Source: Magnetococcales bacterium
Lineage (GTDB): Bacteria; Pseudomonadota; Magnetococcia; Magnetococcales; JADFYX01
NCBI GenBank assembly: GCA_002753565.1
Contig: PEAM01000030.1
Location: 1-52,968, forward strand
Direction of reading: 5' to 3'
Length of the DNA stretch: 52,968 bases
Positions within the stretch are counted from its first letter, which is position 1. Each line of letters begins with the position of its first letter. This document shows positions 18,357-41,199 of this stretch, one piece after another. A program made the position numbers and the translations under genes. Under the pieces are notes generated by a model. It saw only the letters and a program-made list of their open reading frames with translations, was not told the origin of the DNA and did not search any database.

Positions 18357-20698
18357 CGCATGGCCCCGGCCGCCGGATTCAGGCCGTATCGATGCTCCAT
18401 GGTCGGAGCCAACCCCTTGCCCTGGCCGATACGACGACCGATGCCCTCTTCGATCTGCTCAATGATGACATCAAGACGAAACTCTCCAGCACCGTTAAAT
18501 CCGCCTTTGGTTCGAGCGGTGACACCTGGGGCGTTGATGTAGACCGTCGGCTTGATGGTCAAAGCCGGTTGCTCGCCTCCGCTCGAAGGTGCGGATCCGG
18601 CGCTGGCCGTGCTGGAGCTGCTCGGGTTCGGGGATACATGACCGGACTGGTTGCCCATCATTAAAAAATGGCGACCGCCGGTGGAAAGCAGTTCCGGCCC
18701 CTGCTCGGCTACCTCGTAAAATCGACCCGCTTCCACCGGCCCGCCTGAGGCTTTACCGCCACCGAACAGGCCACCAACCCAACCGCCAATAGAATCGGAC
18801 AGACCACCCATGAGAGGGGTGAAAAGAGAAGCAGTAAGCTTTTGTGCCTGCAGTCGGGCAAATTCGGCCAACATGGTGTTAACCATATCTCGTGCGCCAA
18901 ATTTGCCCCCCATGAACAGCCGGGTAAAACCGTCTTCGATACTTTGGGTGGCGGTGTTGGTGATCCGTTCCCACTGTTTGGCTGAATTCCCAGCCTCCTC
19001 GGCGTATTCCCGAGCCGCCCGTTTTACTCCATCAGACCATTTTTGACTGGATTGGAGATCCTCCTCCCTGGCTCGGGCTAATTTATTTTTCAGTACATCC
19101 TTGGCCTTTTTCTCCAACTGTTCATAATCATCCGCATTCCGATCCAAACCAGCCGTTACCTCATTGAACCACTGATTCGCTCGATCCTTGGTTTGTTGAT
19201 AAACCGGCAGGATGGAGAGCTGAGCTTGAGCAATACGTTTAGAACTACGTTCATGGTCAGCCTCAGCCTCTTTTCGTAGCCGCTCCTTGATATCATACTG
19301 TCTTGCTGTGGCTTTTAGAGAGGCCGCAGCAAAAACTTTCTGCCGTTCCGCTCTTTGTTGCTCGGCAGATTCCTCTCTTAACATGCTGTTTTTTAGCGTG
19401 GCGGAAGCAGATGCTTTTCCAAAATTTATGACAGCAGGATCTGCCGGAGGTGGGGCAACCTTTTCAAGATCTCTTTTTTTCTGCCGAATCAGGCCGATCT
19501 CTTTATTGATAGAAACAATACGATTTTGCAGGGCCATCCACCGACCTTCGGTTTGTTTGCTGGCATTCCCTGTTAAACCGGTGAGAAAAGCATCAAAAGA
19601 TTCATCTCCCTGAACCACACTCTCCCACCAATCGCCTGCACTATCCCCAGTCCGGTAACCATGTTTGCGAATTTTTTCTATCTGTTCTAACTCCGCAACC
19701 AGTGCTTGGCGTTGTCTTTTCAGGGTGACAAGCCGCCCATTTTGGTCAGGAGTTAAACCTTCCAATGCGGCAGACAAAAAATCAAGAGATCCCCCGACGG
19801 CATTGGCGACAGCAGGCGTTTTGCCCAAAGTTTCCAATAACTCTTCCCAACGTTGCCCAAGAGTGTCCACTTTTCCGGCAAGGCCACCCGCAGCCGCCTC
19901 ACCCGCCCCACCAACCTGCTCAGCCACCTTCTTCAAGATCAACCGTTGAGCTTCAGCTGCTTGGCCTGTTGAATGGAGTTTTTTTATCAACTCCTTTTCT
20001 GATTCGGCAAAGGAGACTCCCGCCCGCCTAAGGGCAGTCAGACCATTGGCTGGATCTTCCAATGCCTTACCCAACTGCATAGCGGCACCAGAGATATTGG
20101 TTCCCATCACCTCGGCCAGATCTTGAGAAAGAGCGATGGTATCCTTGAAACGCTTACCGGTAACGGTCTTGAAGGTGAGCAACACCCCCATGGCATTACG
20201 CACCCCTTCCGAACTGGCCAGGGTATTCAAAGCCACTTTGCGGGCATAGGCATCCAACTGATCTGCCGAAAAACCGACCGAACGCCCGGTCGCTTTTAAA
20301 ACCGCCCCCAACCGCAACTGTTGCCGCTCGGCATTCATGGCAACGGCAATACCTCGCTGCAAGGCAAAACCGGCAGCACCAACCCCAAGTCCGACACCGA
20401 CCCAGGCAAGATTACTCTTATTAAGGACGGAGGTCAGAGCAGTAAACCGACCGGAAACACCGTTCAAAGGACCGTTGATGAGATTCATGGAATCCCGGAC
20501 ACCGACCAGACCACCCTGAAGTCGCTCCATGCCCTGTTGGACCTGTCCGGTTTTTGTGGCGTAGCGGCGAAGATTGGTTCCACTTTTATTGACCGAGCCA
20601 GAAAGCTTGTCCAACTCCTTGCGGGAGATGTTGACCGCACCCTGGAAGTCAGCACCATCCGCTTTCAGGCGGATATTGAGATTGAGATCCTTACTCAT
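18353..20698 (-). CDS. Tail tape measure protein
   Basis: The 781-aa protein is Ala-rich and helical. It has an N-terminal part typical of lambda-like tape measures (LNIRLKADGADFQGAVNISR), hydrophobic segments near residues 100-125, coiled-coil stretches, and a Gly-rich end with GRFYEVAEQGPELLSTGGRH, a hallmark of the family's C-terminus. Its length sets tail length, here a medium tail if the usual ratio holds. The start is at MSKDLNLN, with GGAGG and AGGA sequences upstream. An antirepressor cassette of opposite strand is inserted immediately upstream. Confidence 0.9.
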   Translation of the reverse strand: MSKDLNLNIRLKADGADFQGAVNISRKELDKLSGSVNKSGTNLRRYATKTGQVQQGMERLQGGLVGVRDSMNLINGPLNGVSGRFTALTSVLNKSNLAWVGVGLGVGAAGFALQRGIAVAMNAERQQLRLGAVLKATGRSVGFSADQLDAYARKVALNTLASSEGVRNAMGVLLTFKTVTGKRFKDTIALSQDLAEVMGTNISGAAMQLGKALEDPANGLTALRRAGVSFAESEKELIKKLHSTGQAAEAQRLILKKVAEQVGGAGEAAAGGLAGKVDTLGQRWEELLETLGKTPAVANAVGGSLDFLSAALEGLTPDQNGRLVTLKRQRQALVAELEQIEKIRKHGYRTGDSAGDWWESVVQGDESFDAFLTGLTGNASKQTEGRWMALQNRIVSINKEIGLIRQKKRDLEKVAPPPADPAVINFGKASASATLKNSMLREESAEQQRAERQKVFAAASLKATARQYDIKERLRKEAEADHERSSKRIAQAQLSILPVYQQTKDRANQWFNEVTAGLDRNADDYEQLEKKAKDVLKNKLARAREEDLQSSQKWSDGVKRAAREYAEEAGNSAKQWERITNTATQSIEDGFTRLFMGGKFGARDMVNTMLAEFARLQAQKLTASLFTPLMGGLSDSIGGWVGGLFGGGKASGGPVEAGRFYEVAEQGPELLSTGGRHFLMMGNQSGHVSPNPSSSSTASAGSAPSSGGEQPALTIKPTVYINAPGVTARTKGGFNGAGEFRLDVIIEQIEEGIGRRIGQGKGLAPTMEHRYGLNPAAGAMR

Positions 20699-20733
20699 TT
20701 CCTGCTTCGCCTCCCACCCATCGAAAAACGAAC

Positions 20734-20762
20734 TTGACAACCTCCGGTATCGGCGGTAGGTT
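20734..20762 (+). promoter_or_regulatory. Promoter of antirepressor cassette 1
   Basis: TTGACA (20734-20739), a 17-bp spacer and TAGGTT (20757-20762) are shared exactly with cassette 2, and as TAGACA-17-TAGGGT with cassette 3. The preceding GAAAAACGAAC is also common to all three. Conservation of just these boxes while the spacer differs supports promoter function. Confidence 0.75.
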
Positions 20763-20768
20763 GACCGT

Positions 20769-20977
20769 AGGTGTTCAAAACGCCTAAACAGTACCCGGCT
20801 TCCGCTCCCGTCAGATTTGCGGTATTTTTGTGCCCGGACATTTTCTTGTCTGCCGGGAGTGCGGAGAATAGAACACCCCTTTGGGGGAATAATCCCACCG
20901 CTGGTACTGCGGTTTTGAGCTCCCGGCAGTTCACAATTCTGTGACTGCCCACCGTTTCAAAAACGGAGTACTGAATC
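20769..20977 (+). ncRNA. C4-like structured leader RNA, cassette 1
   Basis: This leader upstream of the antirepressor-like gene matches those of cassettes 2 and 3 over its whole length. Stems include 20925-20949 (GGCAGT.CACA/TGTGACTGCC), CCGC 20898-20901 with GCGG 20909-20912, a CCCC/GGGG hairpin, and CCGT/ACGG next to the start. In other copies several pairs change on both sides (CCGC/GCGG to CCGT/ACGG; A-T to G-C), showing that pairing is maintained. TTCCG near the leader start can pair with CGGAG at 20964-20968, the ribosome site. This matches the C4 antisense RNA of phages P1/P7; exact ends are estimated. Confidence 0.65.
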
Positions 20978-21523
20978 ATGAAAGAAAACCAAGCCCAACC
21001 CGAGCCCCTCTCCTGGGGTGAAATCCAACTCAACCAGGTCGTGTGGATCAACTTTGTTCCCCATGCCACCAAACAGGCCATTGGTGAATGGCTGGAATAT
21101 GCCGAGCCTCGCCGGTCAATCAATACCCTTTTGGAACGTAATCCGTACATTGATGAGTACTCAACTGACATCAAGTTGATGTCGGTTGACGGCAAAAATC
21201 GGGAGAGTTCCGTCTTCCATCCGATCGGTTTCCTCCTCATCTGCATGGAGTCCCAAACCGAGCGGGCAAAAGAAATGAAACAGCAGATTGCCGCCTTCGT
21301 CTGGGATTTTTGCAAGCCGGAGGAATTGACCTTCAAAGAGAAAATTGAGTTGACTAAGCTGCGTAGAACCATTCTGGTCGATCTGGCCAAAATCAAAGTC
21401 CCGTTCGTCCGCCAGGGACTGCTGGACGATCTGACCCGAGTCAGTAAAATGCTCCGGGAGCCGTTGCCGGATCTGGCTCTACTGGGTGCCGAAGGGGAAC
21501 AGCTCTGCCTGGAGGGGGTTTGA
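20978..21523 (+). CDS. Antirepressor-like protein, cassette 1
   Basis: The 181-aa protein has a conserved N-terminus (QPEPLSWGEIQLNQVVWINF) and a middle part like the BRO-N/antirepressor domain: ERNPYIDEYSTDIKLM, SVFHPIGFLLICMESQ, and AKEMKQQIAAFVW. Its helical C-terminus contains FKEKIELTKLRRTILVDLAK. Antirepressors of this type bind and inactivate phage repressors. It is nearly the same as the cassette 3 protein. Transcription runs against the surrounding tail genes. Upstream is a C4-like leader, which would hold expression down in the lysogen. Confidence 0.7.
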   Translation: MKENQAQPEPLSWGEIQLNQVVWINFVPHATKQAIGEWLEYAEPRRSINTLLERNPYIDEYSTDIKLMSVDGKNRESSVFHPIGFLLICMESQTERAKEMKQQIAAFVWDFCKPEELTFKEKIELTKLRRTILVDLAKIKVPFVRQGLLDDLTRVSKMLREPLPDLALLGAEGEQLCLEGV

Positions 21524-21525
21524 CC

Positions 21526-21774
21526 ATGAATCCCAACCTTCATCAAAAATCCATAGAGCGGCTGATAAAACGGTCCCTGGAGCGTCTGCGCCATGGCGAT
21601 TATTGGGTTGAATCCTATCTGAGCTTGGTCGGGGCCATCGACAGACGGGATGATCGGATCTGGACGGCGAACAGCCTGAATCCCATCCTCAGCATTGCCA
21701 GCGACGCCATCCACCCGACAATTCGGGATCTGGAAAAAATCAAAGGTGAACGGTTCGTTTACTATCCCGATTGA
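21526..21774 (+). CDS. Small cassette protein downstream of antirepressor 1
   Basis: The 82-aa product (MNPNLHQKSIERLIKRSLER at the start; IRDLEKIKGERFVYYPD at the end) is helical and basic in its first third. The ATG lies 3 bp after the antirepressor stop. A distant relative follows antirepressor 3, and its C-terminal 35 residues are fused to the antirepressor start in cassette 2. It therefore belongs to the cassette. Function is unknown; a partner of the antirepressor is plausible. Confidence 0.65.
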   Translation: MNPNLHQKSIERLIKRSLERLRHGDYWVESYLSLVGAIDRRDDRIWTANSLNPILSIASDAIHPTIRDLEKIKGERFVYYPD

Positions 21775-21796
21775 CATTTAAAAACCTCCTCATCCG

Positions 21797-22183
21797 CTAT
21801 CCCCGGTCCAGGCCGGGGGTGGCGGCTTCACTCCAAGCTTGCAACGCCGCATCCTCCAGTATCCGTAATTGGCCAAACAACTCTTTGGCCGGCAGTTCAA
21901 TTCCCTCCATCCGCATGGCCGCCAGCACCGCTGAATAGTCCAGGCCGATCCGCTGACCACCTGAAGCGCGCCACTGAGTGGAAACCAGGAGAAAAAGCTC
22001 CAATGTGGGCCAGTTCTCCGGCAACACCATAAAATCGGAATCTTCCAGTTCTCCTGCTGGCTCAGCCCAGTTATCTATTGCCTCTGGCGACGCACCAAAG
22101 GCGGTCAGGGCCTCGGCGGTGGTATCCTCTCCACTACCCTTTCCATTCTCTCCCGTGGCCCAATGGCGTGCCGCCTCGATCAG
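21797..22183 (-). CDS. DUF1799-type tail assembly extension (gpGT part), frameshift-expressed
   Basis: This 128-codon frame has no start codon at its beginning. It continues from the upstream tail chaperone gene after a -1 shift at 22183-22189, beginning LIEAARHWATGE. Its end (LELFLLVSTQWRASGGQRIG, LDYSAVLAAMRM) is the DUF1799 domain that forms the C-terminal half of gpG-GT fusions in lambda-like phages. The first in-frame ATG (22030) would omit half of the region, so the fusion product of about 237 aa is the likely functional form. Such fusions bind the tape measure during tail assembly. Confidence 0.8.
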   Translation of the reverse strand: MIEAARHWATGENGKGSGEDTTAEALTAFGASPEAIDNWAEPAGELEDSDFMVLPENWPTLELFLLVSTQWRASGGQRIGLDYSAVLAAMRMEGIELPAKELFGQLRILEDAALQAWSEAATPGLDRG

Positions 22184-22509
22184 TTTTTTCGGCGGTTCGA
22201 CTTCCCGGACAGGGAGTCATAAAAACTCTCTACCAAAGCAACCCGCAGATAGGGCGTATCCAGGAGTTGGGCACGGTTTTCCTGGGTGTATTCAATCGTA
22301 TCTCCATCGGCATCCAGGAAATTGCTCCAGCCGTCCAACACCTCATCAAGCAGGTCACCATCATCAATGCCGGTAAAAGCTTCCAACCGGGATTGAGAGA
22401 TATAGTTGAATGATGCGGTAAAGTTGATCTTTTTTGTGCCATTCCCCTGGGGAATATGGACGGTAACCTGGTGGCAGTAGTTTTTTTCGGTAACAAGTTT
22501 AAAAGCCAT
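22180..22509 (-). CDS. Tail assembly chaperone (gpG-like)
   Basis: The 109-aa protein lies between the tail tube and the tape measure, the fixed position of lambda gpG. It has MAFKLVTEKNYCHQVTVHIP at the start, then SFNYISQSRLEAFT and TPYLRVALVESFYDSLSGKS. It ends in SNRRKN, where the last two codons form the slippery site for the -1 shift. Most ribosomes should give this short form and a minority the longer fusion. Both are assembly factors absent from the finished virion in related phages. Confidence 0.85.
   Translation of the reverse strand: MAFKLVTEKNYCHQVTVHIPQGNGTKKINFTASFNYISQSRLEAFTGIDDGDLLDEVLDGWSNFLDADGDTIEYTQENRAQLLDTPYLRVALVESFYDSLSGKSNRRKN
22183..22189 (-). promoter_or_regulatory. 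Programmed -1 ribosomal frameshift site A AAA AAC
   Basis: On the minus strand the zero-frame codons CGA AAA AAC TGA contain A_AAA_AAC, a canonical -1 slippery heptamer, directly before the stop codon of the chaperone gene. Slipping leads into the open frame encoding DUF1799. The arrangement matches the tail assembly frameshift conserved across long-tailed phages. Confidence 0.85.
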
Positions 22510-22518
22510 GTTGACTCC

Positions 22519-23457
22519 TTACATTACGGTAATGGTGATCTCATCGTCCCCAGTATCGGTGGGAACCAGGGAAAGCCCCATATCCAGGGTTTCGGAACCC
22601 TTGTGGTCACCAAAATTGGGGGATAACAACTGCACGCCCGGGGCGTCGATCTGGATGATGTTGCCGGGCTGGGTGCCGTGGATGATCTGCAACGCCCCGG
22701 TAGTTTCAGCCAGTGCAATGGCGAAATAGTCCTTGGTGGAAAGTTTGGGCGAAAGAATCCGGGTCTGACCGGTGATGTTGCGGTCCAATAGCTCAATGGA
22801 TTCGGAGCCGACCAGAAAGATCGGTTCGGCCTGGGCCTGATTGTTGAATGTCCACTCCAGCGGGTTGACCGTGGCACCGTGCAGAAGGGAGGTTGGGGTA
22901 TTGCCCTTGTTGACCACCTTCGGCTTTTGAAACTGACTTAAATCCGGTGTCGGGAACGCTTCGGAAACCGGCGTGGCACGTAAGCCCGCAAACTCGAATG
23001 TGAGGTAGGGAATCTGCTGGGCGGTAAATTTCAACCCCCAACTGCCCCGAGCCCCGACCATCTTGTGTAGATTGCCGTCCCGGTAGAAATAGATGGTCAC
23101 CGAGGGAATGTTGTCGGAGATCGGTTTGTAGACCACGTCCACCCCGGCATTGATGGTCTCGCCCATGCCGCAGGCTTTGAGCATCGCCGCCCAGCCGGGC
23201 ACATCCCCGGCCGCACCGGCCCCGGCCAGCTCCACCTCACAGGAGAGTTTTTCATAAATCTCAGCAAGAATTTTCTCCTGAGCCCCCAATCCCCGACCAA
23301 TCAAATCCCGGCTGATCTCGGTGGCCGCCATAGGCGTCAAAGAGAGATTGTGGAGCTGCACGGCATTGGCTCCACCGGTAGGAACAGGATCAACCCCGTA
23401 GGCGACCTCCTCTTTGACCAGCACGGCAGTTTTTTTAATGCGAACGGTATCGGCCAT
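22519..23457 (-). CDS. Major tail tube protein
   Basis: The 312-aa protein begins with RIKKTAVLVKEEVAYGVDPV, a usual start for siphophage tail tube proteins, and is beta-rich with no membrane or catalytic motif. The last part (TLDMGLSLVPTDTGDDEITI) resembles the end of tube subunits. The gene precedes the gpG/GT chaperones and tape measure, which fixes the assignment. A copy number of several hundred per tail is typical of the family. Confidence 0.82.
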   Translation of the reverse strand: MADTVRIKKTAVLVKEEVAYGVDPVPTGGANAVQLHNLSLTPMAATEISRDLIGRGLGAQEKILAEIYEKLSCEVELAGAGAAGDVPGWAAMLKACGMGETINAGVDVVYKPISDNIPSVTIYFYRDGNLHKMVGARGSWGLKFTAQQIPYLTFEFAGLRATPVSEAFPTPDLSQFQKPKVVNKGNTPTSLLHGATVNPLEWTFNNQAQAEPIFLVGSESIELLDRNITGQTRILSPKLSTKDYFAIALAETTGALQIIHGTQPGNIIQIDAPGVQLLSPNFGDHKGSETLDMGLSLVPTDTGDDEITITVM

Positions 23458-23469
23458 ATTATTACCTCA

Positions 23470-23886
23470 TCAATCGTAAAGGGAGAGTTCCAAATCGGCG
23501 GCAATCCAGCCGAACGGTTTTTCCAGTTGCCCGGAGTGGTTGACACCCATAAGCCAGAGATTGAGCAGTTCGTCCGGCAACGGTCCCCGGACCAGATTTT
23601 TTATCTCCTCAATGACGGCAAACTCGGCATCCTCCACCGTTGAGCCGGGATCTTTCTCGCCAACCTTGAGTTGCACCAGCAGCAAAACCTTCAACCGCCC
23701 CCCCTGAGCCTCCCGACCGACCACCTGCTGATATTCCCCTTCAGATTTACAAAGCAGGGTGTAGACCCCTTTGGCCAGATCGGTATTACTGCGCTGCGCC
23801 ATGGGGAGGAAATCACGGGTGATAATCCGATCGGGCAGTTGATCGGCCAGGGTCTCTTTTAATAGGTCCATGACAGTAGCGGTCAT
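23470..23886 (-). CDS. Tail terminator/completion-like protein
   Basis: The 138-aa protein starts at MTATVMDLLKETLADQLPDR and has a mixed fold with EYQQVVGREAQGGRLKVLLL in the middle and PFGWIAADLELSLYD at the end. Its position between the HK97 gp10-like and tail tube genes is that of tail terminators or completion proteins (lambda gpU type). Its ribosome site lies in the left flank of antirepressor cassette 2. The frame upstream of this ATG lies in the cassette and is not used. Confidence 0.6.
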   Translation of the reverse strand: MTATVMDLLKETLADQLPDRIITRDFLPMAQRSNTDLAKGVYTLLCKSEGEYQQVVGREAQGGRLKVLLLVQLKVGEKDPGSTVEDAEFAVIEEIKNLVRGPLPDELLNLWLMGVNHSGQLEKPFGWIAADLELSLYD

Positions 23887-23923
23887 TTTATCTACTTCAC
23901 CTCCCACCCCTTGAAAAACGAAC

Positions 23924-23952
23924 TTGACAACCATCATCATAGGCGGTAGGTT
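23924..23952 (+). promoter_or_regulatory. Promoter of antirepressor cassette 2
   Basis: TTGACA (23924-23929) and TAGGTT (23947-23952) are separated by 17 bp, the same boxes and spacing as in cassette 1, while the spacer sequence differs. Confidence 0.75.
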
Positions 23953-23958
23953 GACTGC

Positions 23959-24166
23959 AAGTGCTAAAAACACTTTTACAGAACCCGGCTTCCGCTCCCG
24001 TCAGATTTGCGGTATTTTTGTGCCCGGACATCCTCATGTCTGCCGGGAGTGCGGAGAATAAAACACCCTTCGGGGAAATAATCCTGCCGCTGGTTCTGCG
24101 GTTTTTAGCTCCCGGCAGTTCACAATCCTGTGACTGCCAACCGCATAAAAAGCGGAGAACCAAGAC
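23959..24166 (+). ncRNA. C4-like structured leader RNA, cassette 2
   Basis: The leader keeps every element of the copy 1 leader. GGCAGT.CACA/TGTGACTGCC is at 24114-24138, CCGC 24087-24090 pairs with GCGG 24098-24101, and a CCGC/GCGG hairpin at 24141-24155 overlaps the Shine-Dalgarno GCGGAG. TTCCGCT in the early leader is complementary to AGCGGAG of the ribosome site (7 pairs with one G.U). The leader is intact although the genes behind it are deleted, so it may still act in trans on the other cassettes. Confidence 0.65.
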
Positions 24167-24367
24167 ATGAATCACAATCAAACTCAACCCGAGCCCCTTT
24201 CCTGGGGTGAAATCCGACTCAACCAAGTTTTGTGGATTAACTTTGTTCCCCACGCCACGGCGAACAGCCTGAATCCCATACTCAGCATTGCCAGTGACAC
24301 TCTGCATCCGACCATCCAAGATCTGGAAAAGATCAAAGGTGAACGGTTCGTCTACTACCCCGATTGA
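24167..24367 (+). CDS. Collapsed antirepressor cassette: in-frame fusion of both genes
   Basis: The 66-aa frame joins the first 31 residues of the antirepressor (PLSWGEIRLNQVLWINFVPH, then AT) to the last 35 of the small downstream protein (ANSLNPILSIASDTLHPTIQ to YYPD). Compared with cassette 1, about 560 bp are missing, with the join at CACGGCGAACAG near 24255. The BRO-like middle part is gone, so antirepressor activity is unlikely. Because the join is in frame and the promoter, leader and ribosome site are kept, the peptide could still be made. Confidence 0.8.
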   Translation: MNHNQTQPEPLSWGEIRLNQVLWINFVPHATANSLNPILSIASDTLHPTIQDLEKIKGERFVYYPD

Positions 24368-24378
24368 TATTGTAGAAA

Positions 24379-24897
24379 TCATGGCTGCCTCCGAACCGGG
24401 CCGGAGGCAGCCACCGCATTCAAACCCTCCCGAATCCCCTGACGAACCAACTCGGTCAACCGGTCGGTTTTCTCCGTAAGTGCCGGAGCCATGAAGGGGT
24501 GAGGTTCGGTACCTTTTTTAGCAATAGATCGAGAAATCACGTAGGCCAAATCCCTAGAACTCATATCAGGATTGTGGGGCTGAATTTTTTTACCAACATT
24601 GATCCAGGCTTCGATCATCCAACGGGGCGGTGGTTTGCCCCCCGGCTTACGGCCCTCTTCCACGTAGGCGGCATAATCCGCTCCAGCCGAAACAAGGTAA
24701 TCGGCTGGCCCCTGCTTACGGCGGGAGATGGATTGTCGTAGAGTGGAAAAAGCCATGGGAGTACGGTTTCTTGCCTCCCTGGCCACCTCCAAAGCTCCTT
24801 GCCTTAAAAATCGATCAACATGCTCCATGAGCAGATCCGGAGCCTGGCGCATGGCGGCATCGACACCGGGAATGTTGTGTTCGATGGCGACTTTCAT
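24379..24897 (-). CDS. HK97 gp10-like head-tail connector protein
   Basis: The 172-aa protein starts at MKVAIEHNIPGVDAAM. It has the HK97 gp10 pattern: ALEVAREARNRTPMAFSTLR, YLVSAGADYAAYVEEGRKPG, and the C-terminal HPFMAPALTEK. Such proteins sit at the head-tail joint or complete the neck. Its start overlaps the stop of the upstream gene as ATGA. A perfect 11-bp inverted repeat (24383-24393 with 24402-24412) lies in its last codons. Confidence 0.85.
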   Translation of the reverse strand: MKVAIEHNIPGVDAAMRQAPDLLMEHVDRFLRQGALEVAREARNRTPMAFSTLRQSISRRKQGPADYLVSAGADYAAYVEEGRKPGGKPPPRWMIEAWINVGKKIQPHNPDMSSRDLAYVISRSIAKKGTEPHPFMAPALTEKTDRLTELVRQGIREGLNAVAASGPVRRQP

Positions 24898-25523
24898 CGT
24901 GCGGCCCACCGTTCGAACCGTTCCATGAGGGTGCCATGGATAGCCATCGGATTGGTATTTTTGGCCTGACCGCCACCAGGAGCCTGGGTAGCTGATTTTC
25001 CGCTGTTGCGGACGGACATTTCCAACATCGCCTCGGCCTGGGCCCGCAACAAAAGCAGATCCCGATCGGCGGGGTCGATGGTGGTGTCGGCGGCATCAAC
25101 GCCAACCTGATGGCGGGCGGAATAGGTAAACTCGAAGGTGGTACCCAGTTTGTGGATCTCGCTGGCGGTCGGAGCTGGTGAAAGTTGGATCTTTCGGACT
25201 CCCTCAGACTCTACCAAAGAGAGGGTCGGCGGCTGGTTGGGGAACCCTTTTTCCCACGGTTGGTTGTTTCGTCGTTGCGAATTGCCCCATAGCACCAGAG
25301 CGGGCGAAAGCAATCCTGCAGGGGGATCATAGAGGGACTCCCCGGCAACCAGGGTAACGGTTCCAACCAGGGTACGAGGTCGAAACCGGGTCAGATCCGC
25401 TACCGCCCGGTCCAGGTGACGGATAAAGTCACCGTCAGCATCCGCCACGAACACCTCGGCGGCATCGTGGAGACTGGCTTTCAGATCGACTACCAAATCA
25501 GCTTGAGAAAGAGTTCCCGGCAC
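24894..25523 (-). CDS. Probable head-tail adaptor protein
   Basis: The 209-aa protein is helical with LSQADLVVDLKASLHDAAEV and AADTTIDPADRDLLLLRAQA, similar in organisation to siphophage adaptors. It lies between the lysis genes and the gp10-like gene. No catalytic motif is seen. The adaptor call is based on position and size, so another minor head protein is possible. Confidence 0.55.
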   Translation of the reverse strand: MPGTLSQADLVVDLKASLHDAAEVFVADADGDFIRHLDRAVADLTRFRPRTLVGTVTLVAGESLYDPPAGLLSPALVLWGNSQRRNNQPWEKGFPNQPPTLSLVESEGVRKIQLSPAPTASEIHKLGTTFEFTYSARHQVGVDAADTTIDPADRDLLLLRAQAEAMLEMSVRNSGKSATQAPGGGQAKNTNPMAIHGTLMERFERWAAR

Positions 25524-25524
25524 G

Positions 25525-25932
25525 TCAGCCTCCCACCTTGATAAACATGGAGTAGGTTTGCATGATCAACAGGGCCACCGTGACGATGGAGATAAAACCG
25601 GCGGCAAACCTGAGAAAAGCGGAACTGACTTTCCGATCGCTTTCTCTGGAGTTTTTCAGTGCCGTCACCTCATTTTTCAATAACTGAAGCTGTTCCCTCA
25701 TCTGCTTAGCCGTCTCTTTGCACTCATTATGACCCATTTCCAATCGAATCATCTTCTGCCCGGACAACAGTAGCTCTTGGGTATTTTGATAGACGGCTGA
25801 AAGCTGGGTTTTCATTTCCCGCTGACCGTTGAACAGGGTTTTAAGCTGCTCTTCCAACTTCACCACATCCTGCCCCAGTTCCTGAAGAATGGAACAGGGT
25901 GCGGTATGGTCCAGATTTTGAGGTTTGGCCAC
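25525..25932 (-). CDS. Coiled-coil protein with C-terminal membrane anchor, XhlA-like
   Basis: The 135-aa protein has a long coiled coil (LEEQLKTLFNGQREMKTQLS to NEVTALKNS) followed by one membrane segment near the end (FAAGFISIVTVALLIMQTYS). This shape resembles XhlA/hemolysin-type lysis accessory proteins. It follows the small holin-like gene by 5 bp and is close to the lysozyme gene, so it probably takes part in lysis. A spanin would normally show a cleaved or lipid-modified N-terminus, which is absent. Confidence 0.6.
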   Translation of the reverse strand: MAKPQNLDHTAPCSILQELGQDVVKLEEQLKTLFNGQREMKTQLSAVYQNTQELLLSGQKMIRLEMGHNECKETAKQMREQLQLLKNEVTALKNSRESDRKVSSAFLRFAAGFISIVTVALLIMQTYSMFIKVGG

Positions 25933-25937
25933 CGAAC

Positions 25938-26111
25938 TCAGCCCTCGGCCTTGTCCGCCGTGAAGGTTCCGATAAGACCGGATAGTCCGGTACCGGCGGC
26001 AATGATGTACTCCATCATCTCCGGTGAAACAGAGATACCAAAAGCGGTGGCCATCATGGCCAGGCCACGCCAGGATGAGGGCTCTTTAAGACGATTGATT
26101 ATGTTGTTCAT
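25938..26111 (-). CDS. Small holin-like membrane protein
   Basis: This 57-aa protein reads MNNIINRLKEPSSWRGL at its start, then a hydrophobic region (AMMATAFGISVSP and YIIAAGTGLSGLIGTF), and a charged end (TADKAEG). The start motif with KEPS.WRG is shared with small phage holins. It lies between the lysozyme and the XhlA-like gene, where a holin is expected. A GGAG site precedes the ATG. The gene is short and easily missed. Confidence 0.75.
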   Translation of the reverse strand: MNNIINRLKEPSSWRGLAMMATAFGISVSPEMMEYIIAAGTGLSGLIGTFTADKAEG

Positions 26112-26156
26112 GGTTCAAGAATCTCCTGTTTGATTAACTGTCGATGGTGAAAAAAA

Positions 26157-26687
26157 TCAGTAGCTGCCGTTTTGCATCATGGTAGCCAGCGCCGTAGCCC
26201 GACGGCCCACCTGCTTGGCCCACCGTGAATCCAGCATCTCCTCAGCGGCCCGGTCATAATCCTGGTTAGCAAGGGCGGCCAATAGTTTTTTAAAGCGCAG
26301 AAATCGGGAGAGGCCCAGGTTGAAGCACATATCCACCAGGGCCTGTTTGCGGGCCTCAATCAATTGATCGAAGCCGGGAACTTTCTCCCGCAACTCAACG
26401 ATCACCCGATTGACGTCAGAGGCCAAAAGATACATCGCCCCGGCTCGGGAGAGGCCACAGGGGTGAACACCGGTTCCACCGATGAAACCCTCATTTTGAA
26501 ACAGCCAGATCAACTCCTCATTTGATATGCCAACCTCTTCCACATTACGCCCGACACCAATGGTCCATTTGTTGGCTGGGCACTGGTAAAGCTCCACCTT
26601 CATGGCTTCATGCTTAATCAGTCGATCCAAAAGAGCCATGGTGTCGTCAATGGTTGCGTCGACATTAAATACAGTTTCGTTCGGCAT
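26157..26687 (-). CDS. Phage lysozyme (GH24-like endolysin)
   Basis: The 176-aa protein has the T4-lysozyme-type layout: the catalytic Glu in LIKHEAMKVELY, the beta hairpin ANKWTIGVGRN, the helical lobe with ALVDMCFNLG, and WAKQVGRRATALATMM at the end, matching the family's RxxR(A) motif. It should cut peptidoglycan glycan strands during lysis. There is no signal peptide, so export depends on the neighbouring holin. Its start shares a base with the upstream stop (TGATG). Confidence 0.9.
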   Translation of the reverse strand: MPNETVFNVDATIDDTMALLDRLIKHEAMKVELYQCPANKWTIGVGRNVEEVGISNEELIWLFQNEGFIGGTGVHPCGLSRAGAMYLLASDVNRVIVELREKVPGFDQLIEARKQALVDMCFNLGLSRFLRFKKLLAALANQDYDRAAEEMLDSRWAKQVGRRATALATMMQNGSY

Positions 26688-27004
26688 CAGACACTCCTCC
26701 GCTGTTGTTCCTCTTGAATGGCTTCCAGAGCGGTCACCCGGTTTTTGCCTTCGGCCTCCAACTCCGAAAGAATGATCAACTCATCATCGGTAAGCTGGGC
26801 CAGTCCGACTTCAATCGCCTCTACCGTACCGTCGCAGAGTGATTCGAGCAGCTCCACGCGGGGATTAATGGGAGGTTTGGCCGGAGCTAGTGACGGCGAA
26901 ACCGGAATCTGGCTGGAGTCCACCATCCGGGTCTCCCCCGGCCAGACTGTTTTGCCACCGATTGAAACCGGGTTGTTGCTCTTATTGGTAAAGGGTATAA
27001 ACGG
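26687..27004 (-). CDS. Small hypothetical virion-region protein
   Basis: The 105-aa protein begins MPFIPFTNKSNNPVSIGGKT, then has a proline-rich linker (SPSLAPAKPPINP) and a helical, acidic C-terminal half (LTDDELIILSELEAEGKNRV). It follows the capsid gene by about 12 bp. Similar small proteins behind the major capsid gene often serve in head completion, but I cannot assign one. Confidence 0.6.
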   Translation of the reverse strand, partial: PFIPFTNKSNNPVSIGGKTVWPGETRMVDSSQIPVSPSLAPAKPPINPRVELLESLCDGTVEAIEVGLAQLTDDELIILSELEAEGKNRVTALEAIQEEQQRRSV

Positions 27005-27016
27005 CATGATCACCCC

Positions 27017-29557
27017 CTACCGGTTGGTGAAGCTGTAGGCAATGACCGCCGTGGCATAGCCTCGAAGGGGCGACGGCACATGCACGGCGCTGTACTCTTC
27101 CCCATAGGCCACCTTTTTACCGATGGGCTTGCCATCGGAATCCACCGCCTCAAACGGGGTACCGGTTTGGAACGGTTTGGCCACCGTATAGGTCAGGGTA
27201 TTGCGAACTCCCAACTGAATCCGTTCATCACCCAGATCCACACCCGGTGCGTTGGTGGAAAAAGCGGGAATGGCCTTGATGGAGGAGAGATCACCCTGAC
27301 TGGTGGTATCGGCCCCATCCCGTTTGGCCGAGGCGGAATAGGTCTCGGCGTTGGTGGCCTTGTCGTTCAATACTGGGCTCATCAACATGTAGTCGGGCAT
27401 GACATAACGATCGGCGGACATCATCGCCTTACGCGCCCCAACCGACCGCAACAGACCGTTCATATGAACCTCTTCTGTCGTATTGGCCGGCAGATCCAGA
27501 TCGAACTTGGTGGCGTTGGTCGCATAGCTGTAGGAGATAAAATCATCCCCCGCCGAGGCCGCAGGAGTAACCGGCGTACCAGTCTCATCCACATACTGGA
27601 TGTAGCCCAGGTTGTAGTTGGTTATCCGGTAATAGGTTCCAGCCCCTTGGGTAATGGCCGGGTTGTAGAGGGAGAGAGCCACCGAGTTGAGTTGAACCAC
27701 CAGAGGGTTCTCCTCACTACCGACCGCCTGGCCTTTCAAATTCCGCACCTGGTGAGAACGGACGATAGGATACTGGGCCGACTTGACGATGCTTACCGTC
27801 GTACCGTTTAGCTGGCCGGAAATATCCTCATCGCTGATATCCATTGCCCCGAACTGATCGGAAACTCGCTGCAGCTCGTTGCAAATCCGCCGGACAATCA
27901 ACTCCCGAATGATCCGGGCGTTGGAGGCGACGTTTCGGGCATAGGCGTCCCAATCGATGGCACTGGAGCGGGAGAAGTGAATCACCTCGTTGGAGATCAA
28001 CAATGCCAGTTTCATCGGCAGGATGTAGGCAAAATCCATCTCCTGAGAGACCCCAGCCTGTTGAATGGCCTGGCCTTCAAAGACAATACCATCACCGACT
28101 GAAGCCGGAAGATTGCGTTGTTCGTAGGGAATATTGGTGGTCTGAGTGGCGGTAAAATCGGTCAAGGTCTGGACCAGTTCCAGCACTCGCAGATCGTGGA
28201 GGGCCTCACGGATGACGGTCCGGGTGAATCCGGCCGGTAGGTTGGTATCACCGATGCCGGTTTCGCCACCGGCCAGCATCTTCTGCTCCAGCTCCAAACG
28301 TGGGGCGTTGATCCGGTCGTACTCCGACAGCACCTTGGCGACGAACGGATCGATATCCTTGGCCAATCGCAATCCACCACCGGAGAATACCGCAGAGAGT
28401 TTCAGGGCATCGTTGATCCCCTCTTGTAGCTTGACGATGCCGGATTGGGAATCGGCACTGATTCGAACCGTACCCTGAGAGGCACTATCGTATCCCATGG
28501 CGGCGAGCTGCTGGGTGGACTCCATTTCCTGACCGAGTTGAATCTGATTTTCGGCCAGGGCGATCACTTGCGCCTCATCCATACTGGCCGTCACCAGGGA
28601 GACCGCAGCGGAAAGTCTCTTCCGGGTATTCTCCGATAGCCCCTCAGCATCGGTAATCAGCTTGCTGAACTGCCCTTGACGGGTTTCCAAATCCTCAGAG
28701 AGTTTTTTCGATGCGGCATCCTGTTCGGCCAGCTCTTTTTTTACCAGTTCCGCCACGATGGTTGAGTCGCTCTCCGGGGCCACCTGATTAATCGAAAGCT
28801 GTATGGTTGGCGGTATGGCCGTTGACTCGGGTTGTAGCTCACTCAATTGCGTGGCCGCATCGGACAACTGTTTGACCAGGCTTTCCAGCATGGTTTCGTC
28901 CGACTCGCTCAGTTGCTTGGCGGCCTTTTCGAATCCAGCCAGATAGCTTTCGATCGCCTCCTCGGAGAGTTTCAGCCCTTCCAACTTTTTACGCAGTTGT
29001 CCCAGATACTTTTTCATCGTTTTTGTGTCCTCTTCGGAGAGTGTTTTTGCCAATTCAGGGGGTATGAGACAGTGGGAGTCGGTGCATCGCTCTTCTTGGG
29101 AAAGCGTCACCTGATCCAGATTTTTCACCCGGGGCCGAACGGTCAAACCGGCGCCCATCAAGGTACAGCCGTGTTTTTTACCGGTTTCGGGATCGGGGTA
29201 GTTTTCGTGGTAGTCGGCGGAGAGATAGTGGAAACCGCGTTTTTGAATCGCCTCCACCCCGTAGTCGGTCCAAGCCACCTCGGCCCGCAGGCGGTTTTTC
29301 TCGACAAACAGCTTTTCAACAAATCCCGCTGCCCCTTCCGAATGGCGATGGGCAACATCGATGGCGATCTTCTGACCGTAGGTGTTCTCGGTAAAATTTT
29401 TTACCATCCGGTTCAACATGGCGCGGGTAATCTTTACCTCGCCATACCAGGAGTCGGCAAAGGTCACCACTCGGGTGAGAGTGACAGTAGATTTTTTCGA
29501 CCCGTCAGCCAGAGTGATGGGGCGTTCGGAGAGAATTCTTTTTTTCTTACCGGCCAT
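27017..29557 (-). CDS. Fused capsid protease, scaffold and major capsid protein
   Basis: This 846-aa protein combines three modules. Residues 1-175 resemble Mu protein I, the head maturation protease (IAIDVAHRHSEGAAGFVEKL, VAWTDYGVEAIQKRGFHYLS). Residues about 180-370 are Glu/Gln/Ser-rich and helical, as in scaffolds (LRKKLEGLKLSEEAIESYLA, QLSDAATQLSELQ). Residues about 390-846 look like a major capsid protein (FTRTVIREALHDLRVLELVQ, NLPASVGDGIVFEGQAI, DWDAYARNVASNARIIRELI). No separate capsid gene exists in the late region. The polyprotein presumably cuts itself after shell assembly. Confidence 0.8.
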   Translation of the reverse strand: MAGKKKRILSERPITLADGSKKSTVTLTRVVTFADSWYGEVKITRAMLNRMVKNFTENTYGQKIAIDVAHRHSEGAAGFVEKLFVEKNRLRAEVAWTDYGVEAIQKRGFHYLSADYHENYPDPETGKKHGCTLMGAGLTVRPRVKNLDQVTLSQEERCTDSHCLIPPELAKTLSEEDTKTMKKYLGQLRKKLEGLKLSEEAIESYLAGFEKAAKQLSESDETMLESLVKQLSDAATQLSELQPESTAIPPTIQLSINQVAPESDSTIVAELVKKELAEQDAASKKLSEDLETRQGQFSKLITDAEGLSENTRKRLSAAVSLVTASMDEAQVIALAENQIQLGQEMESTQQLAAMGYDSASQGTVRISADSQSGIVKLQEGINDALKLSAVFSGGGLRLAKDIDPFVAKVLSEYDRINAPRLELEQKMLAGGETGIGDTNLPAGFTRTVIREALHDLRVLELVQTLTDFTATQTTNIPYEQRNLPASVGDGIVFEGQAIQQAGVSQEMDFAYILPMKLALLISNEVIHFSRSSAIDWDAYARNVASNARIIRELIVRRICNELQRVSDQFGAMDISDEDISGQLNGTTVSIVKSAQYPIVRSHQVRNLKGQAVGSEENPLVVQLNSVALSLYNPAITQGAGTYYRITNYNLGYIQYVDETGTPVTPAASAGDDFISYSYATNATKFDLDLPANTTEEVHMNGLLRSVGARKAMMSADRYVMPDYMLMSPVLNDKATNAETYSASAKRDGADTTSQGDLSSIKAIPAFSTNAPGVDLGDERIQLGVRNTLTYTVAKPFQTGTPFEAVDSDGKPIGKKVAYGEEYSAVHVPSPLRGYATAVIAYSFTNR

Positions 29558-29730
29558 CAGGTCTCACCCTCTTCCCTGCCATCCCATTTGATGGCGCGGA
29601 TGATCTTATGCAGTTGCAAAAAGATGATGGGAATGGAAACCACGGCACAGATCGTCCAGAGCAATAGATACTTGTCATCCATCGAGACAATTTCCTTCAA
29701 AACTTCCGCAATGGTGGTATACTTCTCCAC
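29557..29730 (-). CDS. Small single-pass membrane protein before the capsid gene
   Basis: The 57-aa product (MEKYTTIAEVLKEIVSMDDK at the start) has one membrane segment (YLLLWTICAVVSIPIIFLQL) and a short charged tail. It starts with GTG, 8 nt after an AGGAG site. Its stop overlaps the capsid start as TGATG, so it is the first gene of the capsid unit. No family is recognised. Confidence 0.6.
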   Translation of the reverse strand: MEKYTTIAEVLKEIVSMDDKYLLLWTICAVVSIPIIFLQLHKIIRAIKWDGREEGET

Positions 29731-29761
29731 GTCACATTCTCCTATTCAGGGTGTGGCCAAT

Positions 29762-29799
29762 ACCGTCGGAGTCCGGCAAGACTCGCGACGGTTTTTTTG
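29762..29799 (+). terminator. Rightward-oriented hairpin and T-run
   Basis: ACCGTCG (29762-29768) pairs with CGACGGT (29786-29792), extended by GAGT/ACTC inside, and seven T follow. It is oriented to stop rightward transcripts, for which no gene is seen immediately upstream. It may protect the leftward late units from antisense reading. Confidence 0.6.
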
Positions 29800-29828
29800 T
29801 CTTTGGGGCAGTGGATCAAATGTAGGTG

Positions 29829-29850
29829 GACAAAATAAGGGCAGAGTGTG
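29829..29850. repeat. Late-unit motif, copy 1
   Basis: GACAAAATAAGGGCAGAGTG plus TG is identical to copy 2, 70 bp away, and 19 of 22 bases match copy 3 at 37898. About 30 bp before the motif are also similar between copies 1 and 2, indicating an imperfect tandem duplication. It lies upstream of the capsid unit. Confidence 0.8.
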
Positions 29851-29898
29851 GCCAAACCCTTTTTTCCACCTTTGGGGAAGTGAAGCAAAGAAAGGACT

Positions 29899-29920
29899 GA
29901 CAAAATAAGGGCAGAGTGTG
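29899..29920. repeat. Late-unit motif, copy 2, with inverted-repeat ends
   Basis: This copy is flanked by ACTGACA at the left and TGTCAGT at the right, a 7-bp inverted repeat with a 16-bp centre, typical of a protein-binding site. It lies between the terminator of antirepressor cassette 3 and the leftward capsid unit. Confidence 0.8.
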
Positions 29921-29930
29921 TCAGTAGCGA

Positions 29931-29961
29931 AAAAAAAGCCCCGACCGAGGAGAGTCAGGGC
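29931..29961 (-). terminator. Terminator of antirepressor cassette 3
   Basis: On the minus strand GCCCTGAC (29961-29954) pairs with GTCGGGGC (29945-29938) with one T.G pair, flanked by AAA and TTT, and followed by a T-run. It lies about 30 bp after the end of the cassette 3 genes and would end their leftward transcript before the capsid unit. Confidence 0.85.
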
Positions 29962-29991
29962 TTTGGGTGGGGTGTTGAGGGAAGAAGCGAA

Positions 29992-30231
29992 TCAGGTAAT
30001 CATATCGCGTTTAAGCCGTTCCAGATCTCGGACGGCCATCCACAGTGTATCGTCGGCATCCTCCAAGGCGATGGCCAGATGATCCGCCGACCAGACCACC
30101 TTATCCAGGTCTTCAATGGCCTGGGCCAGGGTAATCTGGGCTTTGATGTGTTTCCGCTTTTGGTTCAATCTCCGGATGGAGCGACTGACAAGACGTTTTC
30201 GTGTTCGGGGATGAAGGGAACCGTTCATCAT
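29992..30231 (-). CDS. Small cassette protein downstream of antirepressor 3
   Basis: The 79-aa protein is basic and helical (RKRLVSRSIRRLNQKRKHIK, then a C-terminal WMAVRDLERLKRD). It is a distant homologue of the small protein in cassette 1: both share an MN..LH start, RSI/RSL.RL, a W.A/W.S..L core and RDLE.+K. The start overlaps the antirepressor stop (TGATG). Retention of a diverged second gene in the same place suggests a joint function with the antirepressor. Confidence 0.65.
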   Translation of the reverse strand: MMNGSLHPRTRKRLVSRSIRRLNQKRKHIKAQITLAQAIEDLDKVVWSADHLAIALEDADDTLWMAVRDLERLKRDMIT

Positions 30232-30782
30232 CACACCCCCAACCCATCCAGCACCAACTGCTCGCCTTCACTCCCCAGTAAGGCCAGATCCGGCAGAGGT
30301 TCCCGAAGCATTTTGCTGACACGGGCCAGATCATCTAACAGACCCCGGCGGACAAAGCTGTCCTTTATTTTAGCCAGATCGACCAGAATGGTTCTACGCA
30401 GCTTGGTCAACTCGATCTTCTCTTTGAAGGTCAACTCCTCCGGTTGGCAAAAATCCCAGACAAAGGCGGCAATCTGCTGTTTCATCTCCTTGGCTTTCTC
30501 GGTCTGGGACTCCATGCAGATGAGGAGGAAGCCGATCGGGTGATACACAGAAACATCCCGTTTTTTGCCGTCAACTGTAATCAGGTTGATTACAGTTGCG
30601 TACTCTTCGATGTACGGATTTCGCTCCAAAAGTGTACTGATGGAAATGCGAGGTTCAGCATATTCCAGCCATTCACCTATGGCTTGCCGGGTGGCGTGGG
30701 GAACAAAATTAACCCACAAAACCTGATTGAGTTGGATTTCACCCCAGGAAAGGGGTTCCGGTTGGGTTTGAACAGTATTCAT
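30231..30782 (-). CDS. Antirepressor-like protein, cassette 3
   Basis: The 183-aa protein is closely similar to the cassette 1 protein through most of its length (QPEPLSWGEIQLNQVLWVNF, VYHPIGFLLICMESQTEKAK, ELTFKEKIELTKLRRTILVD). The main differences are in the segment around TVINLITVDGKKRDVS, the likely specificity region. This copy runs in the same direction as the late genes. The start at MNTVQTQPEP is used because it aligns with the other copies and lies 8 nt after GGAG. Confidence 0.7.
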   Translation of the reverse strand: MNTVQTQPEPLSWGEIQLNQVLWVNFVPHATRQAIGEWLEYAEPRISISTLLERNPYIEEYATVINLITVDGKKRDVSVYHPIGFLLICMESQTEKAKEMKQQIAAFVWDFCQPEELTFKEKIELTKLRRTILVDLAKIKDSFVRRGLLDDLARVSKMLREPLPDLALLGSEGEQLVLDGLGV

Positions 30783-31006
30783 GATCACTTCTCCGCTTTC
30801 TATGCGGTTGACAGCCGCAGGATTGCGGGCTGCCGGGAGCTAGAAACCGTGAAGTTAACGGCGGGATTATTTCCCCGAGGGGTATTCTATTCTCCGCACT
30901 CCCGACAGACAGACGGCACCGTAACATAAGTACCGGAAAGCGGACACAAAAATACCGCTGGACTGACGGGAGCGGATACCGAACTTCAGGGTGTTTCTAG
31001 CACCTG
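30783..31006 (-). ncRNA. C4-like structured leader RNA, cassette 3
   Basis: This is the most diverged leader, yet its stems are kept. 30810-30834 forms GACAGCCGCA/TGCGGGCTGCC where copies 1 and 2 have TTCACA/TGTGA. 30847-30850 pairs with 30858-30861 as CCGT/ACGG where the others have CCGC/GCGG. The Shine-Dalgarno hairpin is 30793-30807. These double changes are compensatory. TCCGCT at the leader start can pair with AGCGGA of the ribosome site. Confidence 0.65.
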
Positions 31007-31012
31007 AGAAAG

Positions 31013-31041
31013 ACCCTACACCAAAAAAAATGGCCTGTCTA
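31013..31041 (-). promoter_or_regulatory. Promoter of antirepressor cassette 3
   Basis: On the minus strand TAGACA (31041-31036), 17 bp and TAGGGT (31018-31013) correspond to the promoter boxes of cassettes 1 and 2. The preceding GAAAAACGAAC is conserved. Confidence 0.65.
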
Positions 31042-31121
31042 GTTCGTTTTTCCTTGTGTGGGAGGCGAAGTAGAGAGAGGGTGACAAAAGTTGATTTTCT
31101 GTGTGAGGTATAAAAACAAGC

Positions 31122-32801: not shown

Positions 32802-32824
32802 GGACCACCACTCCTCCCACCCGG

Positions 32825-41181: not shown

Positions 41182-41199
41182 TATAGGAGGATAGCGAGA

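Follow-up and report, generated by a model that had tools for sequence, protein, structure and literature searches.

The window analysed here, one whole contig of 52,968 bases (PEAM01000030.1; G000:C4) from a Magnetococcales bacterium, bears a tailed prophage with three copies of a small cassette, a leader followed by coding sequence, placed among its late genes. The leader of each copy contains a match to the Rfam RNA family RF02221 (sRNA-Xcc1), and a segment of this RNA that is variable between loci (segment B, the loop of the second hairpin plus the linker) recurs as its reverse complement twice in its own transcript, at site A near the 5′ end of the leader and at site C over the Shine-Dalgarno (SD)/start region of the next gene. 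The cassette is probably a self-contained, RNA-gated antirepressor module resembling the immI system of phages P1 and P7 and the immunity of P4. Sequence comparison shows the RNA family, the covariation within it, the complementarity of B to A and C across loci and, in a good part of the loci, an antirepressor-type next gene.

The complementarity was scored in a first set of 102 loci, 96 of which were used (three short loci and three with a duplicate B were dropped). Matches of B to its own site averaged 12.79 at A and 9.19 at C, against 7.70 and 7.26 with swapped partners (0 of 20,000 permutations in each case). Expressed as z, the real pairs reached 28.5 (A) and 14.2 (C), and four controls, made with identical letters on the wrong strand or with hairpin 1 in place of B, gave 1.4, 0.8, 1.2 and -0.6. 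A second set scored with unchanged parameters repeated the result (32 of 35 loci used, two short and one duplicate B dropped; z 13.1 at A and 9.6 at C, 0 of 20,000); it consisted of 29 genome loci, a subset of the places listed, and six viral or phage loci, the viral loci having been inspected by eye beforehand and the 27 genome loci used not. Duplex energies concurred with the match scores (0 of 5,000), and a first, cruder run-length permutation test had the same sign with a narrower gap. The signal at A exceeded that at C throughout. P1 C4 RNA scored with its own windows served as a positive control (A p 0.001, C p 0.018). The pattern can be seen by eye at locus L010, where the reverse complement of B is GCCGAAAACCGCAAACAGTC, A is GGCCGAAAACCCCACCAAACAGCGGA and C is CCCCGAAAAGGAGCAAACAGCCATG. 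B is a segment that varies by locus, and A and C vary with it.

Leader RNAs were scored with Rfam's RF02221 model. Copies 2 and 3 lie above the gathering cut-off of 53 bits and copy 1 slightly under it (Table 1). The initial annotation had taken the RNA to be C4-like and pointed to the Rfam C4 family (RF01695); that identity was not borne out, as the C4 model found nothing at E ≤ 1 for copies 1 and 3 and nothing at gathering in the whole window, and the same model recovered P1 C4 at 68.8 bits. As another candidate for the identity of the RNA, isrK (RF01394) was rejected, its covariance model finding no match in the window. RF02221 has no Rfam clan and C4 belongs to CL00128, and the RF02221 consensus has a topology like that of C4: a closing stem, hairpin 1, an open-loop hairpin 2, the linker, the closing stem again and a C-rich tail.

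Covariation was measured on 64 cores hand-picked out of 95 (set A4; 31 omitted). The RF02221 structure paired 84.8% of cells compared with 77.7% in shuffles, and its covariation was 0.240 against 0.133 in shuffles (0 of 500), the best slid structure reaching 0.112. Two-sided changes occurred in 14 of 18 pairs, hence the earlier observation that the leader stems are maintained through paired changes holds for the wider family. RNAalifold alone returned only eight pairs from the 64-core alignment, in which some rows have their 3′ arm displaced by MAFFT; for this reason the Rfam structure was imposed and its pairs counted. Folded singly, the RNAs of copies 1 and 2 were more stable than shuffles (z -2.7 and -2.5).

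All three leaders were found at the positions and on the strands first reported, and they span 214–230 nucleotides from the -10 element to the ATG, as counted from sequence (Table 1). An upstream block GAAAAACGAACTTGACA (TAGACA in copy 3), or GAAAAACGAACT(T/A)GACA in the form common to the three copies, matches the window three times at up to three mismatches (0.24 expected) and is found elsewhere in the 3.87-Mb genome at one place, with two mismatches (up to two allowed). The shared flank noted earlier was also recovered, CTACTTCGCCTCCCAC having four window matches at up to three mismatches (0.30 expected), three of them at cassettes; at copies 1 and 2, but not copy 3, the flank GGGAGG.GAAG.AG looks like the ribosome-binding site of a divergent late gene. 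Other parts of the initial annotation needed amending. Its TTGACA-17-TAGGTT promoter type applies to copies 1 and 2 and not to copy 3 (TAGACA-17-TAGGGT), and a promoter scan of the window called none of the three. The pairing it proposed between an early TCCGC and the SD region is minor, the main antisense segment being B with its two sites. An antirepressor-like gene plus a small gene, described for every copy, is present in copies 1 and 3, and copy 2 has a 66-amino-acid fusion. Pfam and PHROG searches found no family for the small genes of copies 1 and 3. The leader, the RNA and both target sites of copy 2 are complete, its C match being the best of the three copies. Having lost most of its coding sequence yet remaining in frame, copy 2 may be retained for its RNA alone.

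Table 1. Cassette features and prophage genes in the window. Scores and shuffle p values are for the match to segment B.
Feature	Position	Strand	Remarks
Copy 1 upstream block and promoter-like TTGACA-17 nt-TAGGTT	20702-20762	+	TTGACA 20734-20739; TAGGTT 20757-20762
Copy 1 site A, leader target	20770-20799	+	GGTGTTCAAAACGCC hairpin and CAGTACC; score 11.2, shuffle p 0.009
Copy 1 conserved box GCGGTATTTTTGTGCCC	20819-20835	+	4-bp stem here; terminator-like end in many relatives
Copy 1 RF02221 (sRNA-Xcc1) RNA	20851-20936	+	51.2 bits (gathering 53)
Copy 1 segment B as tested (hairpin-2 loop and linker)	20894-20924	+	antisense key
Copy 1 site C over SD (TCAAAAACGGAGTAC)	20957-20971	+	score 11.0, shuffle p 0.021
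Copy 1 antirepressor-like gene	20978-21523	+	181 aa; Bro-N-like fold predicted
Copy 1 small gene	21526-21774	+	82 aa from ATG; function unknown
Copy 2 upstream block and promoter-like TTGACA-17-TAGGTT	23892-23952	+	TTGACA 23924-23929; TAGGTT 23947-23952
Copy 2 site A	23961-23989	+	score 12.8, p 0.003
Copy 2 RF02221 RNA	24041-24125	+	57.5 bits, exceeds cut-off
Copy 2 segment B	24083-24113	+	
Copy 2 site C (TAAAAAGCGGAGAACCA)	24146-24162	+	score 13.0, p 0.004
Copy 2 remnant open reading frame	24167-24367	+	66 aa, in-frame; antirepressor start joined to small-gene end
Copy 3 upstream block and promoter-like TAGACA-17-TAGGGT	31013-31073	-	TAGACA 31041-31036; TAGGGT 31018-31013
Copy 3 site A	30979-31004	-	score 15.4, p 0.0005
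Copy 3 RF02221 RNA	30823-30907	-	55.7 bits, exceeds cut-off
Copy 3 segment B	30835-30865	-	
Copy 3 site C (TAGAAAGCGGAGAAGT)	30787-30802	-	score 9.0, p 0.12; weakest of six sites
Copy 3 antirepressor-like gene	30231-30782	-	183 aa; 84% identity to copy 1 in alignment
Copy 3 small gene	29992-30234	-	function unknown
Strong intrinsic-terminator-like hairpin 3′ of copy 3	29935-29964	-	12 pairs, then T-run
CI-type repressor	9016-9951	+	311 aa; PF07022, E 5.6e-17; putative antirepressor target
Tail fibre J	11456-13837	-	
Tape measure	18353-20740	-	
Minor tail protein	22519-23457	-	
Head-protease-like protein	27017-29557	-	
Head morphogenesis	32825-33913	-	
Large terminase	35322-36938	-	E 9.7e-5
Integrase	38653-39720	-	

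The three copies hold different keys. The reverse complement of B reads TCAAAACC..AGTACC in copy 1, TAAAAACC..AGAACC in copy 2 and TAGAAACC..GAAGTT in copy 3, and the A and C sequences track these differences in all three. By match score, the antisense of each copy scores highest with its own site A. Clean orthogonality of the three copies was rejected on match scores at C and on duplex energies. At site C of copy 3, B of copy 2 scored 10.4 against 9.0 for the own B, and at site C of copy 1, B of the C23 locus scored 12.0 against 11.0. Duplex energies gave -27.3 for B of copy 2 on site A of copy 1 compared with -25.6 on its own A, and at site C of copy 3 they were -24.9 with B of copy 1, -26.3 with B of copy 2 and -18.6 with the own B. 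We saw no sign of cross-talk avoidance within genomes, comparing 134 within-genome with 858 between-genome non-self pairs (-20.1 versus -20.7 at A, -19.3 versus -18.0 at C). The three keys have diverged in step with their sites, and, since neither scores nor energies are cleanly orthogonal, the copies may cross-regulate one another.

The genes behind the RNA were compared with antirepressor families. The 181-amino-acid protein of copy 1 matched PHROG 5060 (anti-repressor Ant) at E 5.3e-6, and the copy 3 protein, in a 176-amino-acid reading, at E 4.9e-5. A structure model of the 181-amino-acid protein (predicted local distance difference test 84.5, predicted template-modelling score 0.64) was built from seven input sequences, the five models spanning 59.5–84.5. 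It gave 13 matches at E ≤ 0.001 in a fold search against viral proteins, nine of the ten named ones being Bro-N, BRO or 'repressor domain', with modest template-modelling scores by query (0.37–0.49). Ski/Dachshund-like and DdrC domains from the fold search against PDB had middling Z and were not used. The protein is thus predicted to be Bro-N-like in fold, and by analogy with these families the 181- and 183-amino-acid proteins are probably antirepressors.

Near relatives of the antirepressor were few (one phage record, no plasmids and two viral contigs). The fifth of five homologues outside the window lies on one of the viral contigs (L036), where a protein with 52% identity to that of the window directly follows a canonical C4 RNA of 70.9 bits, the strongest link found. 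Also on this contig are matches to isrK (50.0, at the cut-off) and, upstream, to c4-a1b1 (39.6, under the cut-off); the C4 of the contig, scored alike, matched site A at p 0.0005. The P1/P7 immI-like logic first suggested for the cassette is well supported by these results: the leader RNA complements both an upstream site and an antirepressor-like SD, changes in it are compensated, and a homologue stands behind a true C4.

Across loci, 88 open reading frames behind RF02221 were picked by script and 12 wrong frames were removed by eye, leaving 76. Pfam families, counted per family and possibly overlapping, included Bro-N (n = 6), SymE (n = 6), Phage_pRha (n = 5), and P22_AR_N, KilA-N and AlpA (n = 1 each), with eight further families found once or twice each. 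Antirepressors head the corresponding PHROG families among the 25 of 67 shown. Leader similarity recovered six distinct phages, all of which have an antirepressor-type gene next: Bro-N with P22_AR_C, annotated ant, in Aaphi23, AntA annotated antirepressor in Rac-SA53, KilA-N in Acinetobacter phage 4316, Bro-N in Moraxella phages Mcat15 and Mcat17, and Bro-N annotated antirepressor in Bordetella phage IFTN1. Their shuffle p values were 0.0005–0.006 at A and 0.0025–0.07 at C, except for 4316 (0.55 at C). Two of the three query leaders are themselves, by eye, followed by antirepressor-type genes, and the sample is therefore not a neutral one. Of six plasmid records matched by a symE-type leader, the one inspected likewise has a BRO gene next. 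On the Pseudomonas aeruginosa plasmid pWTJH12-KPC (L335, 143243-146348), an RF02221 match of 82.7 bits precedes a gene of the BRO family that shares four bases with an overlapping ISL3 transposase gene. The RF02221 module is also mobile on plasmids. At L172:2890-2958 a c4-2 match of 34.8 bits (cut-off 41) precedes, by about 1.3 kb, the RF02221 RNA that belongs to a P22-type ant gene.

We propose that a single promoter would give a leader with site A, the conserved box (a terminator-like hairpin in many relatives) and the ~85-nucleotide RF02221 RNA, and that downstream of the RNA site C would cover the ribosome-binding site ahead of the antirepressor gene. While the prophage makes the RNA, presumably by processing of the leader, segment B would pair with A and C of further transcripts, ending transcription early, hiding the SD sequence, or both, and so keeping the antirepressor off. 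An imbalance between RNA and target, in a cell without the RNA or on arrival of a copy with another key, would allow the antirepressor to be made, which would then inactivate the CI-like repressor. P1 C4 and P4 CI are the models for the suggested silencing in trans and for prophage induction by antirepressor release. The CI-type repressor has its CI helix-turn-helix and no second Pfam domain at E ≤ 0.01; this fits the initial remark that it lacks a self-cleavage domain and proves nothing about induction.

Several results weigh against the proposed gate. The RNA of copy 3 does not fold clearly better than shuffles (z -1.2), copies 1 and 2 have no terminator-like stem and copy 3 has only an off-register one. 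Among the 96 loci, the own site ranked first, ties allowed, in 48 at A and in 20 at C, and the own score exceeded the 99th percentile of swapped pairs in 54 (A) and 19 (C). Copy 3 (p 0.12) and the C4-linked L036 (p 0.15) have a weak site C, and several relatives in G396 and G283 retain A and show no visible C. Concerning the protein, the 181-amino-acid product is under the Pfam Bro-N cut-off (13.6 versus 25.6 bits, E 0.1) and has no PDB fold match at E ≤ 0.001, neither RF02221 nor C4 lies near four of the five outside homologues (L037, L235, L236 and L237), and of the 76 downstream reading frames at least 47 match no Pfam family.

The Bro-N-like protein could be an autoregulator or an exclusion factor, in which case the RNA gate would be right and its output different, and we regard this as unlikely. 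RF02221 is found ahead of SymE (6 of 76 loci) and of many unknown genes as well, hence the gate is not bound to one output, and the protein is short, under the Bro-N cut-off and without a second Pfam domain. However, the closest PHROG families are antirepressors, one homologue is C4-linked (L036), and the L235 homologue adjoins a divergent gene that resembles a helix-turn-helix repressor by eye.

It is rather improbable that the leader is a cis-only attenuator, in which A and C would compete for B in one transcript, choosing between termination or SD hiding and expression, with no free RNA in trans. Xanthomonas sRNA-Xcc1 is a stable, discrete RNA of ~100 nucleotides on a blot and 88 nucleotides by mapped ends, which is the RF02221 length (PMC2996969), and P1 C4 and P4 CI, with the same order of elements, act as antisense RNAs (PMC12197685, PMC4825925). 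An attenuator would nevertheless be compatible with the resemblance between A and C (z 6.9), such as mutually exclusive folds would show, and with the terminator-like hairpin between site A and the RNA in 57 of 101 leaders (5.7 expected).

In favour of a virulence role we counted the control of sRNA-Xcc1 by HrpG/HrpX, reportedly the subject of Chen 2011, going by its title. That sRNA-Xcc1 is a trans-acting virulence or host-signalling RNA whose place in prophage leaders is incidental is nonetheless hardly credible: it is vesicle cargo in Xylella with predicted plant targets (PMC12189769), but in the two data sets alike the part of the RNA that varies finds its match within the transcript it comes from, of the 57 phylum-sample genomes with RF02221 28 belong to the window's own class, and the hosts of the named phages include Bordetella avium, Acinetobacter, Moraxella and Escherichia coli.

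RF02221 turned up in 28 of the 61 relatives and in 29 of 48 genomes from the window's class. In the phylum sample 57 of 398 genomes had a match, in the class of G195 26 of 369, and among the 14 control genomes none. The window's genome holds six matches, and two of the other three (C8 and C23) share the extended leader before small genes. Nine copies were counted in G283 and five in G396, and clusters were seen in G192 (three within 10.2 kb) and G327 (two within 4.1 kb). Multiplication of the cassette, at first thought undescribed, therefore has precedents in these multi-copy genomes and in the five sRNA-Xcc1 genes within 1.6 kb of a genomic island of Xylella fastidiosa (PMC12189769). An identical leader occurs in the Magnetococcales record L141 (JADGCQ010000002) and in L023 of the same-order genome G022. 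A pattern scan of the genome contigs gave at least 116 stretches, mostly chance; among the 116 listed, the leader profile accepts three (L051, L053 and L141).

Some matches stand apart. A sub-group (L028-L031 and L193-L197) has RF02221 matches of about 36–42 bits, most of which begin GCCGGGGCTTGGGG or similar, with GTAAGGGGTA-like sequence upstream; five scored members show no A or C match (scores 5–9), and the sub-group may be another RNA picked up by the RF02221 model. The match at L002:1501-1586 (G000:C86) is above the cut-off, has no leader box, no A match (6.0) and no downstream gene picked by the script, and is perhaps an orphan RNA. Type II hammerhead ribozymes were detected above cut-off at L042:750-818 and L051:3172-3237, one on a viral contig and the other in Magnetococcales.

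Within the prophage, the repressor is the sole gene listed in Table 1 outside the cassettes that is on the plus strand. Copies 1 and 2 of the cassette are opposed to the late operon and copy 3 is co-directional with it. A contig of a same-genus genome (L328; G004:C114) runs collinear with the late genes at 22.8–29.8 kb of the window and lacks copy 2, about 23.84–24.43 kb being covered there by fewer than 100 bases; copy 2 may therefore be present or absent like a moron gene, or it was lost in L328. At the place of copy 3 the same contig has another small reading frame before a similar terminator, and it ends nearby. An ArsR-type regulator and an ArsP-type permease at 40801-42165, just past the integrase, perhaps mark the prophage border, and an OmpR-type response regulator (Trans_reg_C, with a weak receiver domain) at 32130-32831 adjoins the prophage head genes.

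We hold it evenly balanced whether RF02221 at large is a proteobacteria-wide lock-and-key immunity of mobile elements, this prophage carrying a ring of three keys and the Xylella sXF RNAs being of the same kind and not virulence RNAs. If so, each RNA would silence its own antirepressor, Rha, KilA-N or SymE gene together with incoming copies of the same key, the gutted copy 2 would possibly be kept as immunity or as a decoy, and the host genome would hold at least two further keys. As the key is legible from B against A and C, mutual immunity or awakening would be predictable for prophages, plasmids and integron cassettes. An sRNA family of plant pathogens would gain a concrete job, that of gatekeeper of mobile-element antirepressor and SymE genes. 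This bears on virulence and plant-target claims for relatives of sRNA-Xcc1 in Xanthomonas and Xylella, for which targets should be predicted in their own transcripts first.

By covariance model the cassette RNA belongs to the same family as Xanthomonas sRNA-Xcc1, which is found in an integron cassette upstream of symE, and differs from it in published role, that of a virulence-regulated trans-acting sRNA and not a cassette gate. The position upstream of symE has been said to suggest 'a divergent regulatory mechanism' (PMC12444791), and in E. coli EDL933 an 89-nucleotide sRNA-Xcc1 with many reads is among the RNAs of low ribosome coverage (PMC5331693). The five clustered Xylella genes (sXF) were published as possible virulence RNAs, and at 1,323,982-1,324,381 of X. 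fastidiosa De Donno a 400-base stretch carries annotations of C4, isrK and sRNA-Xcc1 on the same strand, the two RNA systems being neighbours there (PMC12189769). Two papers (PMC12189769 being one) have both sRNA-Xcc1 and C4 in annotation tables and do not link the two. The literature searched, which did not include Chen 2011, did not join sRNA-Xcc1 to antirepressors or C4, and an earlier statement there is possible.

Parallels are also found among phage immunity systems. P4 CI (seqA/seqC) and Gifsy-1 IsrK/STnc1160 before anrP resemble the cassette in having a leader-made antisense RNA with upstream and downstream sites, CI pairing with both (PMC4825925). Many RF02221 leaders also have a terminator-like element after site A and ahead of the RNA (not copies 1 and 2, and copy 3 only off register), which may be a further likeness to P4. 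P4 governs its own replication genes and not an antirepressor (PMC4825925). P22 immI (Mnt/Arc/sar/ant) is similar in that an antirepressor is restrained by an antisense RNA, sar (PMC12197685). The C4 system of P1 and P7 (RF01695; c4-a1b1 RF03163) shares with the cassette the three-way junction with hairpin 2, linker and C-rich tail, an upstream target (a1b1) with a second target at the start of the antirepressor operon, and the kind of gene controlled. The AntA/AntB behind RF02221 in Rac-SA53 we take to be the P1 ant family. P22, for its part, has its antirepressor gene set among late genes and a sar that pairs with ant mRNA as a separate antisense transcript, and to our knowledge its immI has neither a leader-made RNA nor an upstream target duplicate. 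Homology of the 5′ half of the leader to the P1 c4-a1b1 region is not claimed: the P1 box agrees with copy 3 at 17 of 18 bases by eye, and the leader profile, for which 41 of the 100 RF02221 leaders were used, reaches P1 only at E 0.29, which is the level of chance rows in a box-enriched database. RF02221 differs from C4 in being another sequence family with a shorter closing stem, an internal loop in hairpin 1 and a two-part key that varies widely between loci. The cassette would be C4-like in function and, by covariance model, RF02221 and not C4.

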